Shown piece by piece: positions 55,952 through 60,807 of a stretch of 64,000 nt of DNA (the first letter of the stretch is position 1; every line of letters starts with the position of its first letter). Under the pieces are notes generated by a model, which worked only from the letters and a program-made list of their open reading frames with translations, was not told where the DNA came from and searched no databases. The position numbers and the translations under genes are program-made. This DNA is from Puniceicoccaceae bacterium K14 (GTDB taxonomy: Bacteria > Verrucomicrobiota > Verrucomicrobiia > Opitutales > Opitutaceae). Where the stretch lies: NCBI GenBank assembly GCA_022538095.1, contig JAKYXN010000004.1, forward strand, positions 62,001 through 126,000, in the 5' to 3' direction.

Positions 55952-56347
55952 TCATTCCCAGTTCGATATCTTCGTAAAAGTAAAAACGCCTTGGCTGGGA
56001 TCCTCAGGATCAAAAGGCTCAATCAGTGAGAAATAGTGTCCGCAGACGTCACTCTGCGGAACCTTCAACGCAGCGTTTTCCGAGTCTTCTTTGCTTTCCC
56101 AATAAATAAGATCCGCCCACTTGCCATTTTCATCCCTCAGCAACTCTCTTTTTATAAACCCCTCTTGCAGTGACAAAAAGCCCTCCTGGAGTTTCTCGGA
56201 TGCTTCTAACAAAGCTCCTTCACGGACATCTTCGAGAGTATGAAAAGGCACGAATTGAACAAACTCTTTGCTCTCTTCCGAATTTGCAATGCTCGCCGTT
56301 GATGAAAATAGCACGATCAGCCCAGTTAAAAATAAGTTTCTTATCAT
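55952..56347 (-). CDS. Exported ABM-like dimeric alpha-beta barrel protein (paralogue)
   Basis: A 131-residue protein with a signal peptide (about 4-22, SIANSEES). The mature part has the ABM-like fold pattern: EFVQFVPFHTLEDV, then LLEASEKLQEGFLSLQEGFI, KRELLRDENGKWADLIYWES, and CGHYFSLIEPFD. The last three match the cytosolic neighbour at 56389-56706 in order and spacing, so they are paralogues. The function is unknown; small ABM-type proteins are often oxygenases or stress proteins. Same strand as its sister and the MerR gene. Confidence 0.6.
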   Translation of the reverse strand: MIRNLFLTGLIVLFSSTASIANSEESKEFVQFVPFHTLEDVREGALLEASEKLQEGFLSLQEGFIKRELLRDENGKWADLIYWESKEDSENAALKVPQSDVCGHYFSLIEPFDPEDPSQGVFTFTKISNWE

Positions 56348-56388: not shown

Positions 56389-56706
56389 TTAGTTGTACGT
56401 CTCTAAAGATGGATACACTTGTATTTGAGAGTCATCCATTTCCTCCATGTCCATCACTGCAAAAAAAGCATGACACACAGTAGAGACTTTCTCTTTCTCA
56501 ATCACCTCTTCCATCTCCTTAGCACTTCTAAATTGGACGATATCAAGGTATCTACCTTCTCCCGTACGCACTAGTTCACGTCGCATCACACCTTTTTCGT
56601 GCGCTGCAAATTCCTTTTGGAACACCTCGGATGCTGCAAGCAAGTCAGCTTCCGTCTTCCCTTTTGCCAACTTAATTGGCGCGAGCACTGTAATCGTTTC
56701 GTTCAT
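56389..56706 (-). CDS. Cytosolic ABM-like dimeric alpha-beta barrel protein (paralogue)
   Basis: 105 residues from the ATG at 56706; a longer reading to 56829 adds 41 residues without homology to the family and is less likely. It starts MNETITVLAPIKLAKGKTEA, then LLAASEVFQKEFAAHEKGVM, RRELVRTGEGRYLDIVQFRS and VCHAFFAVMDMEEM. The pattern is close to the exported neighbour but without a signal peptide. Probable small dimeric alpha-beta barrel. It lies between the MerR regulator and the exported paralogue. Confidence 0.6.
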   Translation of the reverse strand: MNETITVLAPIKLAKGKTEADLLAASEVFQKEFAAHEKGVMRRELVRTGEGRYLDIVQFRSAKEMEEVIEKEKVSTVCHAFFAVMDMEEMDDSQIQVYPSLETYN

Positions 56707-56900
56707 AATTGTCTTCTTTGCAATTTGGTTCGGCAAAACAATACCGGTAATCATGCCATTATGTGGCATATTTGATACCGCTCTCAAAACTTTCCAAGAC
56801 AAGCGCCAAACGAACGTATCGAATACCACTCAACACAAAATGCTCGCAACACGGCTCCCCCCAGCGTACTCGCCTGGCAAAGACAAAATTCTAAACCGAT

Positions 56901-57341
56901 TTACTTCGGCTGTTTTTCGATAAATTGTTTTCGCTTTCGGAATACCCCTTTGTTTCCAAGCTTAAGAAGGCGCTTGAATTTAGGGCACTCTAAATGACTC
57001 CGAGCCTTGCAAACAGACGCGTGACGGAGGCCGTCGCGAACAGCCGAGAGTTGCTGAATCTTCTGATCCAACTCATCTGCTTTCTCCGAAAGCAATTTTC
57101 TATCAATATTCGAGCCTGAGGGACTGAGCATACCTGCGATTTCATCAAGCGAGAAACGCGCGATCTGTCCCAAGGAAATCAATGCCAGTCGCTCAACGAC
57201 ATTGGCGTCGAAAAGCCGGCGCAAACCATTGCGGCCCACCGATTGGATTAGTCCTTTTTCCTCGTAATAGCGCAAAGTCGAGACCGGAAGATTCGACATT
57301 TTCGAGACTTTCCCAATATCCATAATTTCGTGTGGCTTCAT
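56901..57341 (-). CDS. MerR-family transcriptional regulator
   Basis: A 146-residue regulator. The N-terminal winged helix reads DIGKVSKMSNLPVSTLRYYE and KGLIQSVGRNGLRRLFDANV, followed by a helical region and a dimerisation coiled coil (KLLSEKADELDQKIQQLSAV). Near the C-terminus are CKARSHLEC and more basic residues; the two Cys seven apart may sense a metal or redox signal, as in related MerR proteins. It starts at 57341 (ATG) and is divergent from the methyltransferase gene, with a MerR/SoxR-like promoter at 57349-57379 in between. Confidence 0.92.
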   Translation of the reverse strand: MKPHEIMDIGKVSKMSNLPVSTLRYYEEKGLIQSVGRNGLRRLFDANVVERLALISLGQIARFSLDEIAGMLSPSGSNIDRKLLSEKADELDQKIQQLSAVRDGLRHASVCKARSHLECPKFKRLLKLGNKGVFRKRKQFIEKQPK

Positions 57342-57348
57342 TTTCTTC

Positions 57349-57379
57349 TTTACCTCAAGTTAACTTGAACTCGTATCAT
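57349..57379 (+). promoter_or_regulatory. MerR/SoxR-type promoter with 19-bp spacer and palindromic operator
   Basis: On the plus strand TTTACC (57349-57354) and TATCAT (57374-57379) are separated by exactly 19 bases, the hallmark of MerR-class promoters. The spacer contains CAAGTTAACTTG (57356-57367), a perfect palindrome, within CCTCAAGTTAACTTGAA, almost the known SoxR box. The site lies between merR and the TPMT gene, so the regulator should bind here and activate the methyltransferase while repressing itself. Confidence 0.8.
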
Positions 57380-57428
57380 CCAATCTACAACCACTCTACT
57401 TGGATTTTGAAGAACACAAGGATTTATT

Positions 57429-58058
57429 ATGGATACGCGTTTTTGGCAGGATAAATGGGAAAGAAATGAAATAGCTTTTCACGAAAAAGAAGGCTCCTTA
57501 TTATTGCTTAGGCATTTTGGAAAACTGAACCTTCAGCAGCAAAGCCGCATCTTTTTGCCTTTATGTGGTAAAACGAAAGATATCGCATGGCTACTTTCCA
57601 AAGGGCATAAAGTCGTTGGCGTCGAGCTAAGCGAGCTCGCAATCTCCCAGTTATTCCAAGATTTGAAAATCGAAGCCACGATAAGCAAACACGACAAACT
57701 GACGCATTACAGTGCAAAGCATATCGATATATTCGTCGGCGACATTTTTGATCTATCCGAAGAAATTCTTGGCCCCGTTGACGCTATCTTCGATAGAGGA
57801 GCCCTCGTCGCCCTGCCAAGTGAAACGCGTGTACGTTACACTCGACTTCTGAATGAACTTACAAAGGTCGCTCCACAATTACTGATAACCCTAGAGTACG
57901 AAGAAGGCCTAATCCAAGGCCCTCCCTTTTCGATAGGTCAAAAGGAAATCGAACAGCACTACGACTGGACACACGATATCATGCTTGTAGAGCGTGCAAC
58001 AATCAACAATCTACGCGGACAAGTCGAAGCGACCGAGACTGCGTGGCTACTTCGCTAA
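57429..58058 (+). CDS. Thiopurine S-methyltransferase (TPMT) family methyltransferase
   Basis: A 209-residue SAM-dependent methyltransferase. Features are FWQDKWERNEIAFHEKEGS at the start, the SAM-binding IFLPLCGKTKDIAWLLSKGH with KVVGVELSELAI, VGDIFDLSEEILGPVDAIFD, and RVRYTRLLNELTKVAPQLLI. TPMT-type enzymes methylate thiol compounds or oxyanions such as tellurite/selenite. It stands opposite a MerR regulator with a 19-bp-spacer promoter, so it is probably induced by a thiol-reactive or redox agent. ATG at 57429. Confidence 0.92.
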   Translation: MDTRFWQDKWERNEIAFHEKEGSLLLLRHFGKLNLQQQSRIFLPLCGKTKDIAWLLSKGHKVVGVELSELAISQLFQDLKIEATISKHDKLTHYSAKHIDIFVGDIFDLSEEILGPVDAIFDRGALVALPSETRVRYTRLLNELTKVAPQLLITLEYEEGLIQGPPFSIGQKEIEQHYDWTHDIMLVERATINNLRGQVEATETAWLLR

Positions 58059-58086
58059 ACGAACAAAATCGATGAATAAAATATCC

Positions 58087-58106
58087 AAAAACACCCAGCT
58101 GTTTTT
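58087..58106. repeat. Inverted repeat before WYL regulator gene
   Basis: AAAAACA and TGTTTTT flank a 6-base centre (58087-58093 and 58100-58106), three bases before the regulator's ATG. It could be an autoregulatory site or a weak terminator for the methyltransferase gene. Short and AT-rich, so only tentative. Confidence 0.3.
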
Positions 58107-58109
58107 CCA

Positions 58110-58841
58110 ATGAAGCGCACCTCAACCGTAGGCAGACTTCAACGACTAGATTTTCTAAAAGCTCGTCTCAATTCGGGTGATCCAACGACCATTAACGATT
58201 TGGCTAATGAACTCGACGTGAGCGTCAGAACCATTAACCGCGACATCAATGTGCTTAGAGATCAAGGAGAGCCAATTGAAACAGAGAGAGGAAAAGGAGG
58301 AGGCATACGCCTACCAGTCTGTTGGGGGGTCGGGAGAGCAAGCTTCAGCTACGCAGAAGCCGTAGACTTACTCATAACTCTGGCAATTGCCGAACAAATG
58401 AGGTCGAGCTTGTTTATGGCAAACTTGAAGGGGATCAGAAACAAATTACTGAGCTCTCTTTCACCTATACTGAAAAACAAGGTAAAGAATCTAAAACAAC
58501 GAATTCTTATAACCCAATCCGCTTCAATTTACGTCCTATCAGAATTCCCCGGTCTTCAAAAAAAGATTGTAGAACCATTGCACCAAGCATTTTTAATGCA
58601 GTCCCGTATCAGCATTAGATATGGCGCAAAAAATGAAAACGTCACAACAAGAACAATACAGCCACACTATTTTCTTTTGTCGTATCCAGTGTGGTATATT
58701 CTCGCTTGGGATGAACTCAGAAATGACATACGCACCTTTCGTTGCGATAGAATCATAAAGGTAACGAAAAAGGAAAATGAGTTTAAACTCCTTCCTATTT
58801 CTCGTTTTCAAAGGGCCTTATCAGACCTCGATACTATCTAG
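58110..58841 (+). CDS. WYL-domain transcriptional regulator (YafY type)
   Basis: A 243-residue regulator. The N-terminal helix-turn-helix (HTH_11) covers about 10-55 with TIDLANELDVSVRTINRD-like NDLANELDVSVRTINRDINV. A wing GKGGGIRLPV follows. The C-terminal WYL domain has PVWYILAWDELRNDIRTFRC and DRIIKVTK. WYL domains bind nucleotide-like or nucleic-acid ligands and are common in defence or stress regulation. It follows the TPMT gene by 51 bases and may share its transcript, or control itself through the inverted repeat before its start. Confidence 0.86.
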   Translation: MKRTSTVGRLQRLDFLKARLNSGDPTTINDLANELDVSVRTINRDINVLRDQGEPIETERGKGGGIRLPVCWGVGRASFSYAEAVDLLITLAIAEQMRSSLFMANLKGIRNKLLSSLSPILKNKVKNLKQRILITQSASIYVLSEFPGLQKKIVEPLHQAFLMQSRISIRYGAKNENVTTRTIQPHYFLLSYPVWYILAWDELRNDIRTFRCDRIIKVTKKENEFKLLPISRFQRALSDLDTI

Positions 58842-59010: not shown

Positions 59011-60807
59011 TTAGTATACACGCTGGGCGTAGTTATAATACACAGCACCTTCCATCTCGCCAGCGGAATTATAAAACCACGTTTGGATAAAGGCAGGGCC
59101 GGCAGGTAAATCGTTTACGGTAAATGCAATTCCGTCTGCTTCAGGGTTCGCTTTCATTGTTCCATCAAAGTAGACATCCTCTCCGTCCCAAATTTTCATG
59201 CGAGCGCTTGCTATTTCCAACGCCTTCCCAGCCCCAGTGGACGTCAAAGTGGTCTCGTCTTCGATCTCCTTTGGCCAACGACGGAGGTCGAATTGATAAC
59301 TCCCAGAATCATCAAATTCAATCGCAATAAAGCTGCTCCCACTATCTCCTTTAATCACATTGGACTGGCTCCATATCAAGGTTCCATGGAAATCGTGGGC
59401 ATGCAGGATGGTTTCCGGCTCTTCTTCACTCCCAACGATTATCCGTGTGTATTCATGAGCACGTTCCTCGACTAGTTGCCACCACAATTCGTACTCAGCC
59501 TTTAGCTCTCTAATAATCGACTGATTCGCAGGATCTCCGGCGAGGTCATCCTGCTGTCTTTCATCGACCAATACATCGTAAAGTTCCCAATCGTGTTCGC
59601 TACTCTCGCGAAGCAAGCGCCATTTTTTAACAACAATATCCTCTTCCCAAATATCTTTTTTAACCGACAATTTCTTGTACTTCTGCGGATGTTCCGTCCA
59701 CATGTCGTTTATTGTGACCGTGCGACTTTTGTACTCCTCAGGATCATTTGCAGGATCCTCATCCAAGAAAGTCTTAAAGCTTCGTCCGCGAATTTTGAGC
59801 TTATCAGGACGGTTCGCCACATCTTCCAAGCCCAGGACATCCATAAACGTTGGTAGCCAATCGATATGAGCCATCAACGGCACCACATCGCGGCCCTTGC
59901 CTTCTCCACCTAAGTTTCCACCTACCCAGCGAACAAAGCATGGAACACGCGTTCCTCCATCATAGTTCGACCCCTTACCGCCTCGCAGGTGCGTTCCACC
60001 GCCATTGTCGGTCGTGAAGATAAGGATGGTGTTGTCCGCAATTCCTCGATCATCGAGAAAATCCATCAGGCGCCCCATATTCTTATCGATGTTTTCAATC
60101 GTACCCGTTTTGGCGCTGACACCCTCGCGTGCGTCTGGAGGCATCACATGAGGAGCGTGAGCTGTCGCCAAAGGGATGTAAGCAAAAAATGGTTTATTCT
60201 TTTGGATGTTCTCATCCATAAACTCCATCGCCCGATTCATAAAAAAGTTCGTAGTAAAAGCTCCTTCAATGCCGTCATCTTCGTCAGTCATCTTAACCAA
60301 CGTATCATTCACCCACATACTGGCATCCGTATTAGAATTCCCCCAGTAGTCCGGCTGTTGTCCTGTGCCGCCGCCCTTTGTCCAAGCCACATACTCGAAG
60401 CCACGATCCTTAGGACGGAAAGGATAGTTATCGCCCAAATGCCATTTAAAGAAAAGACCGGTAGCATAGCCATTCATTTTAAAAATATCAGCCATAGTAA
60501 TCTCATCAGCTCGCATCATGTTTCGCCCACTGATAGTATGCCAAACGCCTACAACGTCAGCGGGCCGGCCCGTCAACAACGCGCCACGAGTAGGCGAACA
60601 ACTCGGAGAAACATGAAAATCGGTCAAGCGAACACTCTCCGCTCCCAATTTATCGATGTTCGGAGTTCTAGGGCCGTTTTCATTGAAATACGAAAACGCC
60701 TTGTGACTGATATCATCAGGCATCACAAACACTACGTTCGGCCTACTTTGAGAATAAGCCGTTCCTATCAACCAAAAAAACAATACAAATATCAAAAACC
60801 GTTTCAT
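59011..60807 (-). CDS. Secreted sulfatase with C-terminal beta domain (Cys-type)
   Basis: A 598-residue exported sulfatase. A signal peptide covers about 3-19. Metal-binding VVFVMPDDISHKAFSY (Asp31, Asp32) and the formylglycine site CSPTRGALLTGR (Cys70) are present, plus FFKWHLGDNYPFRPKDRGFE and ILIFTTDNGGGTHLRGGKG. Beyond about 480 an extra strand-rich domain follows (FDDSGSYQFDLRRWPKE), unusual for the smallest sulfatases. Likely acts on sulfated polysaccharides. Upstream, 61136-61888 carries an esterase on the same strand but 328 bases away, so they may be separate units. Confidence 0.93.
   Translation of the reverse strand: MKRFLIFVLFFWLIGTAYSQSRPNVVFVMPDDISHKAFSYFNENGPRTPNIDKLGAESVRLTDFHVSPSCSPTRGALLTGRPADVVGVWHTISGRNMMRADEITMADIFKMNGYATGLFFKWHLGDNYPFRPKDRGFEYVAWTKGGGTGQQPDYWGNSNTDASMWVNDTLVKMTDEDDGIEGAFTTNFFMNRAMEFMDENIQKNKPFFAYIPLATAHAPHVMPPDAREGVSAKTGTIENIDKNMGRLMDFLDDRGIADNTILIFTTDNGGGTHLRGGKGSNYDGGTRVPCFVRWVGGNLGGEGKGRDVVPLMAHIDWLPTFMDVLGLEDVANRPDKLKIRGRSFKTFLDEDPANDPEEYKSRTVTINDMWTEHPQKYKKLSVKKDIWEEDIVVKKWRLLRESSEHDWELYDVLVDERQQDDLAGDPANQSIIRELKAEYELWWQLVEERAHEYTRIIVGSEEEPETILHAHDFHGTLIWSQSNVIKGDSGSSFIAIEFDDSGSYQFDLRRWPKEIEDETTLTSTGAGKALEIASARMKIWDGEDVYFDGTMKANPEADGIAFTVNDLPAGPAFIQTWFYNSAGEMEGAVYYNYAQRVY

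Follow-up and report, generated by a model that had tools for sequence, protein, structure and literature searches.

Members of the MerR family activate over-spaced promoters by DNA distortion, and the metal sensors among them keep two loop cysteines, to which CueR adds Ser77 of the other protomer (available sections of PMC9909328). An example of the wider regulatory arrangement is the SoxR of S. maltophilia: according to the accessible text of PMC4411124, it activates mfsA, a divergently oriented MFS gene, through a box lodged in a 19-bp spacer and represses itself at the same site. Human TPMT converts tellurium species to dimethyltelluride (accessible part of PMC11742336). In the open-licence literature we found no paper pairing a MerR-family regulator with a divergent thiopurine methyltransferase; in the accessible passages of one paper naming both, thiopurine S-methyltransferase and the MerR family stand in separate table rows. 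Nor did we find there a study of the regulator family described below, most subscription journals lying outside this scope.

Here we analyze such a pair in the window, a 64,000-nucleotide stretch of the genome of Puniceicoccaceae bacterium K14. With moderate confidence, we read it as a self-contained, horizontally acquired detoxification cassette, in which the MerR-type regulator senses a soft toxicant and induces the TPMT. Most likely, the regulator reads DNA in the manner of SoxR but has an altered sensor loop, and it would switch on "methylate or export" detoxification directed at a soft toxicant resembling thiols or chalcogens.

The cassette and its promoter

The two genes are divergently oriented with 87 bp between them (Table 1).

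Table 1. Features of the MerR–TPMT cassette (positions are those of the window)
Feature	Position	Strand	Details and basis
MerR-type regulator gene	56901..57341	-	146 aa; ORF, with Pfam MerR_1, MerR and MerR-DNA-bind above their cut-offs
Sensor loop H107-A108-x2-C111-x-A113-x2-H116-x2-C119	56985..57023	-	codons 107-119; residue counts per alignment column, window protein plus 80 relatives
-35 hexamer TTTACC of the TPMT promoter	57349..57354	+	read from the sequence; aligned with 78 family operators
SoxR-like palindromic operator CCTCAAGTTAACTTGAAC	57353..57370	none	predicted from the sequence; CCTCAAGTTAACTTGAA = 57353-57369
Spacer	57355-57373		19 bp, between TTTACC and TATCAT
-10 hexamer TATCAT of the TPMT promoter	57374..57379	+	19 bp from the -35 hexamer
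TPMT-family S-methyltransferase gene	57429..58058	+	209 aa; Pfam TPMT 2e-57

The initial annotation had recognized, in the palindrome set within the spacer, the geometry of MerR-class promoters. The coordinates bear this out: the cassette shows the 19–20-bp spacer enclosing a palindrome that is characteristic of the superfamily. Its resemblance to the E. coli SoxR box, also pointed out there, is equally sound. The site agrees with the soxS box at 16 of 18 bases and qualifies as a SoxR-box operator, and the 21 bases CTTTACCTCAAGTTAACTTGA constitute the longest run shared with the soxR-soxS region of E. coli K-12, where they belong to the soxS promoter. The -35 hexamer is atypical at one base, G being found at this place in 77 of the 78 aligned family operators, and this departure counts against our reading.

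The pattern TTKACYTCAAGTYRACTTGAA has a single perfect match in the 5.7-Mb assembly (97% complete), namely the window site; elsewhere it is approached only at four places with three mismatches, while the backward pattern used as a control comes within three mismatches at one place. Inside the window, the only other match with up to three mismatches is the same palindrome on the opposite strand; after shuffling, such matches averaged 0.25 over 100 trials, 5 of which had two or more. Because there is only one perfect operator match in the assembly, the predicted regulon is the TPMT promoter alone. An RNA element was considered and rejected, as Rfam yielded no match across the window at gathering scores, nor in 56600-58300 at E-values up to 1. 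A generic scan of the region for sigma-70 promoters and terminators gave no more than shuffled sequences yield.

A regulator family with a fixed operator

Scanning genome contigs with a sequence pattern recovered at least 439 relatives of the regulator, of which the best 80 were kept and all analyzed. Along with the window protein, they define a family, which occurs in Pseudomonadota, in Acidobacteriota (Sulfidibacter, where the regulator occurs with a TPMT, and a Bryobacterales bin) and, on a plasmid, in Cyanobacteriota. The initial annotation had suggested searching relatives for the same pair and operator. Among the best 80, the operator occurs directly upstream of the regulator gene in 78, with no more than four mismatches to a degenerate consensus. 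This consensus was built from the same 80 loci; therefore, random 180-bp windows of these loci serve as the control, and none of 1,532 contains the operator. Taken with the shuffles and the genome scan, this leads us to reject a chance match. When the 80 are clustered at 80% identity, every one of the 58 clusters has at least one operator-bearing member. The 78 aligned operators share a hexamer spacing of 19 bp, a -35 that is mostly TTGACC or TTGACT, a -10 of the form YAnnnT, a YR center and the right arm ACTTGA(A/G). Two Pseudomonas relatives (L018 and L037) have the regulator with no operator upstream, and they too weigh against our interpretation.

In a quickly built 70-row tree (the window protein, 36 of the best 80 relatives, 15 other family members, 12 SoxRs and six metal-sensing MerRs), the family lies on one side of a branch whose support is only 69, apart from both the SoxR group (support 99) and the metal MerR branch (support 93). 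V. cholerae MlrA was weighed as a possible studied member; it has no predicted ligand-binding domain according to the available part of PMC9662190, which does not give its loop sequence.

True SoxRs coexist with the family. In a sample of 20 genomes chosen from the 80, SoxR proteins scoring above the cut-off, eleven in all, were found in 10. The best soxS-box matches near these eleven have arms of the CCTCAA/TTGAGG type and a more variable center; some SoxR-adjacent boxes (L088, L092), however, have CAAGT/ACTT arms like those of the regulator family. Since the two types of box overlap, cross-reading between SoxR and the family regulator is possible. In the window's own genome (assembly estimated to be 97% complete), no SoxR scores above the cut-off, and we accordingly reject the idea that a true SoxR of the same genome reads the site. 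Thus, a SoxR box may not be assigned to SoxR from sequence alone.

Divergent partner genes

We typed the partners in the best 80 of the at least 439 relatives by tblastn against seeds taken from the same loci. The nearest divergent gene codes for a DUF2938 protein in 31 loci, a class-I methyltransferase of about 290 aa in 20, a TPMT in 15, a TehB-like methyltransferase in seven, and a sodium-sulfate-symporter type protein and an MFS protein in one each, with five unclassified. "MT290", for the second type, and "TehB-like" are labels coined in this analysis, and the examples of both that we scanned fall below the cut-offs of the NCBIfam methyltransferase models. A DUF2938 gene closely follows the methyltransferase gene in nine of the 20 MT290 loci, and a weak fragment of one is seen in a tenth (L077).

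DUF2938, whose commonest-partner status is exemplified by locus L014 (3430-3930) and 30 further loci, is a family with no assigned function, for which the open-licence literature furnished only a table row. Each of the four DUF2938 proteins examined has at least three strongly hydrophobic stretches, which would fit a membrane protein.

Relatives also occur on plasmids, where 55 records of the plasmid collection carry one, and 12 of these were opened. By annotation, the partner is a TPMT in Calothrix (Cyanobacteriota), DUF2938 in Gluconobacter and also in Octadecabacter, where a small gene intervenes, and an MFS protein in Enterobacter, Sphingobium, two Agrobacterium and Erwinia; the divergent position has no annotated gene in Paracoccus, Acinetobacter and Cupriavidus. 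All 12 loci preserve the loop motif, and 11 have the operator within five mismatches, the exception being Morganella. On this Morganella morganii plasmid (L152), the regulator gene overlaps with a GNAT gene and is followed by an MFS gene in the same orientation. Viral contigs yielded no relative, and carriage by viruses was rejected.

These partners both uphold and revise the initial annotation. The part which stands is that a non-SoxR regulator adjoins a SoxR-like operator (78 of the best 80 loci) and diverges from a TPMT (15) or some other class-I methyltransferase (27, the sum of the MT290 and TehB-like loci). The proposed role in thiol or oxyanion methylation is too narrow: as the commonest partner, DUF2938, is not a methyltransferase and drug-type MFS pumps are further partners on plasmids, the role of the family is wider. 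The prevalence of DUF2938 also counts against our own reading, and the MFS pumps would suit a drug-like inducer equally well.

This raises the alternative of a multidrug or electrophile sensor, induced by an organic toxicant or a thiol adduct through cysteine alkylation or a disulfide, with DUF2938, MFS proteins and methyltransferases as alternative means of disposal. Besides the plasmid-borne MFS genes, it could invoke an MFS partner at locus L080, the drug-efflux model EmrB as the best NCBIfam match of all five MFS proteins tested (each below its cut-off), and the precedent of mfsA, an MFS gene driven from a SoxR box in S. maltophilia (PMC4411124, in its accessible part). Nevertheless, we consider it unlikely: the two conserved histidines beside the cysteines (see below) would suggest a coordination site over thiol chemistry alone, and the TPMT partners scoring above the cut-off of a selenium/tellurium model point to chalcogen or thiol chemistry.

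The TPMT and its relatives

A pseudomonad tellurite-resistance determinant reportedly encodes a TPMT, judging from the title of one paper. The window TPMT attains 239.9 bits against the TMPT_Se_Te model (TIGR03840), above the curated cut-off of 223.2, and phmmer links it to the TPMT structures 1pjz and 2bzg. In a first tree, all 17 regulator-paired TPMTs, including that of the cyanobacterial plasmid, were set apart from 30 unpaired ones with a support of 100. These 30 being the top-scoring matches, we brought in 40 of the other 79. With the resulting 70 unpaired rows, the paired label requires three changes instead of one, and the paired enzymes are no longer a clean group: the smallest set that contains every one of the 17 comprises 20 rows, L169, L170 and L173 among them, and the smallest starred one comprises 21, with four unpaired rows. 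The 70 unpaired loci contain neither the loop motif nor a site of the family form, a form which would miss the TTTACC of the window, in flanks that are short (600 bases for 40 of them).

One class sample has a TPMT in 107 of 274 genomes and the regulator in three, and TPMTs are therefore usually under other control. Of those three genomes, one is the center genome, chosen for its regulator, which carries its TPMT on a different contig; in the remaining two, the search gave no TPMT match at the cut-off applied. On an 81-row regulator tree with weak branch support, partner type is clustered (18 changes against a mean of 43.2 in shuffles), and the rows nearest to the window regulator are of the TPMT and DUF2938 types, so that it does not sit firmly among the TPMT-type regulators. 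The usual control of TPMTs by other means, the blurring of the paired group and this loose placement all weigh against our reading.

Distribution and transfer

The regulator is found in one of 57 relatives (E up to 1e-20) and in one of 387 genomes sampled from the phylum (E up to 1e-22), each time the window's own genome. The TPMT is likewise found in one of the 57 (E up to 1e-15), again the window's own. Some of these genomes are incomplete: completeness is 90% or more in 44 of the 57 and in 311 of the 387. Since the searches of the 56 other relatives turned up neither gene, horizontal acquisition of the cassette is probable. Base composition carries no signal of transfer, the GC of the cassette being 0.453 and the window mean 0.449, which counts against our reading.

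On one side of the cassette, 51 bp past the TPMT stop, begins a gene for a WYL-domain HTH_11 regulator (58110-58841, + strand). On the other, downstream of merR and on the same strand, are genes for two small proteins (55952-56347 and 56389-56829, - strand) that are 28% identical to each other, the first being weakly ABM-like, below the cut-off. A tblastn search of 92 family loci (E-values up to 1e-4) gave a hit for none of the three, and they were rejected as parts of the cassette. Beyond it also lies a gene for a 598-aa protein (59011-60807, - strand), which we take to be sulfatase-like.

The regulator protein and its sensor loop

Both Pfam and fold comparisons identify an N-terminal winged HTH followed by a dimerization helix in the regulator. 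An AF2 model computed from a 41-row alignment has a mean pLDDT of 88.6 (a single-sequence model, at 44.3, was of no use). SoxR ranks first in the comparisons with PDB sequences and folds; the best VIA-align row is SoxR 2zhg (Z 12.2, rmsd 4.6, 120 aligned), although several further MerR chains come within 1 of this Z and count as ties. SoxR is also the best NCBIfam model (TIGR01950), with 61 bits against a cut-off of 116.9, and the CueR model (TIGR02044; 54.2 bits, cut-off 147.4) and the other models listed are below their cut-offs as well.

As the initial annotation stated, the protein has exactly two cysteines, C111 and C119. Across the window protein and the best 80 of the at least 439 relatives, these are invariant (81/81), and they are accompanied by H107 and H116 (80/81 each, the exceptions being L074 and L025) and by A108 and A113 (80/81 each; L074 and L075). 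What is conserved is thus more than two cysteines, namely H-x3-C-x4-H-x2-C, and with this conservation the loop could possibly form a four-ligand site. A gap-free phmmer alignment with SoxR puts A108 and A113 on Cys119 and Cys124, so that alanine occupies these places in 80 of 81 proteins, and puts C111 and C119 on Cys122 and Cys130. The review cited above takes Cys119 and Cys130 of SoxR as the loop-end pair (PMC9909328, available sections), and a one-to-one equivalence of the loops is therefore alignment-dependent.

The loop invites comparison with metal sensors. A CueR-like regulator would bind Cu(I), Ag(I) or Au(I) through its C-x7-C loop, the methyltransferase or pump being a secondary response. 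C111 and C119 do have this spacing and fall on C112 and C120 of CueR in a gap-free loop alignment; two loop cysteines are what the metal MerRs keep; and the window protein itself has a Ser77, at most one residue away from where CueR has its own, in a stretch where alignments differ by one to two residues; this serine weighs against our reading. Family-wide, however, that place (35 residues before the first loop cysteine) is G, R or Q in 63 of 81 members, Ser in one and Cys in none, and the residue after it is Pro in 59 of 81 and Ser in one. H107 and H116 are conserved, unlike in the six metal MerRs compared, which also form their separate branch; the CueR model is missed by a wide score; and no metal pump is a divergent partner in the 75 classifiable loci of the best 80. 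We hold a CueR-like metal sensor to be improbable.

It is possible that the family kept the DNA reading of SoxR and exchanged the sensor, with two cluster cysteines giving way to alanines and two histidines being added, to produce a possible Cys2His2 site. The boldest version of this idea is a long shot: a sensor whose Cys2His2 site holds a [2Fe-2S] cluster, as in Rieske proteins or mitoNEET, or else a mononuclear metal, and which would drive "methylate or export" detoxification from plasmids and chromosomes of at least Pseudomonadota, Acidobacteriota and Cyanobacteriota. That the protein is itself a true redox regulator of the SoxR type, its [2Fe-2S] cluster bound by four cysteines, is scarcely credible, for although the operator is of the same kind and SoxR is the nearest solved structure, this reading is contradicted by the two cysteines, the alanines at two of the four aligned positions and the score below the SoxR cut-off, and the 12 true SoxRs compared, all with four cysteines, form a starred group of their own.

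Proposed mechanism and implications

Under the favored reading, a detoxification cassette responding to a soft toxicant, a dimer of the MerR-type regulator would sit on the one SoxR-like operator that separates the -35 from the -10 in the over-spaced TPMT promoter. In the resting state, the dimer would keep this promoter inactive and cover the region just upstream of merR. A soft toxicant, either thiol-, selenol- or tellurol-forming or thiol-reactive, would then engage the C-terminal loop via C111, C119 and probably H107 and H116, upon which the dimer would distort the 19-bp spacer such that RNA polymerase can use both hexamers. The TPMT thus made would methylate a sulfur, selenium or tellurium center, giving a less toxic, volatile or exportable product. 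From MerR activation by distortion, the mfsA precedent, the tellurium methylation by human TPMT (PMC11742336, as accessible) and the reported TPMT of tellurite resistance, we infer both the sensing of a soft toxicant by the loop and its methylation. The other elements have distinct bases: the geometry and conservation of the operator, the regulator family, the partner identities and the isolated occurrence in the lineage come from comparison, and activation by distortion and autoregulation from known MerR behavior, while the nature of the ligand and of the substrate, like the part played by the loop, is inferred.

New relative to the initial annotation are the family, its conserved histidine pair with the alanine replacements, the partner list and the isolated occurrence in the lineage. 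What had been one promoter resemblance becomes a family of regulators that can be delimited by its fixed operator, by four conserved loop residues and by a handful of detoxification partners, and the inducer of the TPMT, methyltransferase and DUF2938 gene set becomes directly testable.

Comparison with known systems

The operators of CueR, ZntR and CadR are expected to differ in sequence from that of the family. These metal sensors have in common with it the fold and two loop cysteines, spaced C-x7-C as in CueR; the family differs in adding two conserved histidines, in not keeping the partner-protomer Ser/Cys and in having no metal pump among its classified partners. The window TPMT is like the bacterial TPMTs of TIGR03840, and it groups with the regulator-paired enzymes, apart from most of the 70 unpaired ones sampled.

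With SoxR, in both the E. coli soxRS and the S. maltophilia SoxR-mfsA systems, the cassette shares the MerR fold, a SoxR-like operator in a 19-bp spacer and a divergent gene pair. Position 21 in the helix 20-28, which corresponds to SoxR Ser26, is Ser in all 81 family members and all 12 SoxRs but in none of the six metal MerRs. In place of the four cysteines of SoxR, the family has two cysteines and two conserved histidines, with alanine at two of the SoxR cysteine positions, and its wing reads GRxGLRR as against RNSGNQRR in E. coli SoxR. By analogy, the SoxR-mfsA pair of S. maltophilia is a close working model for the cassette.
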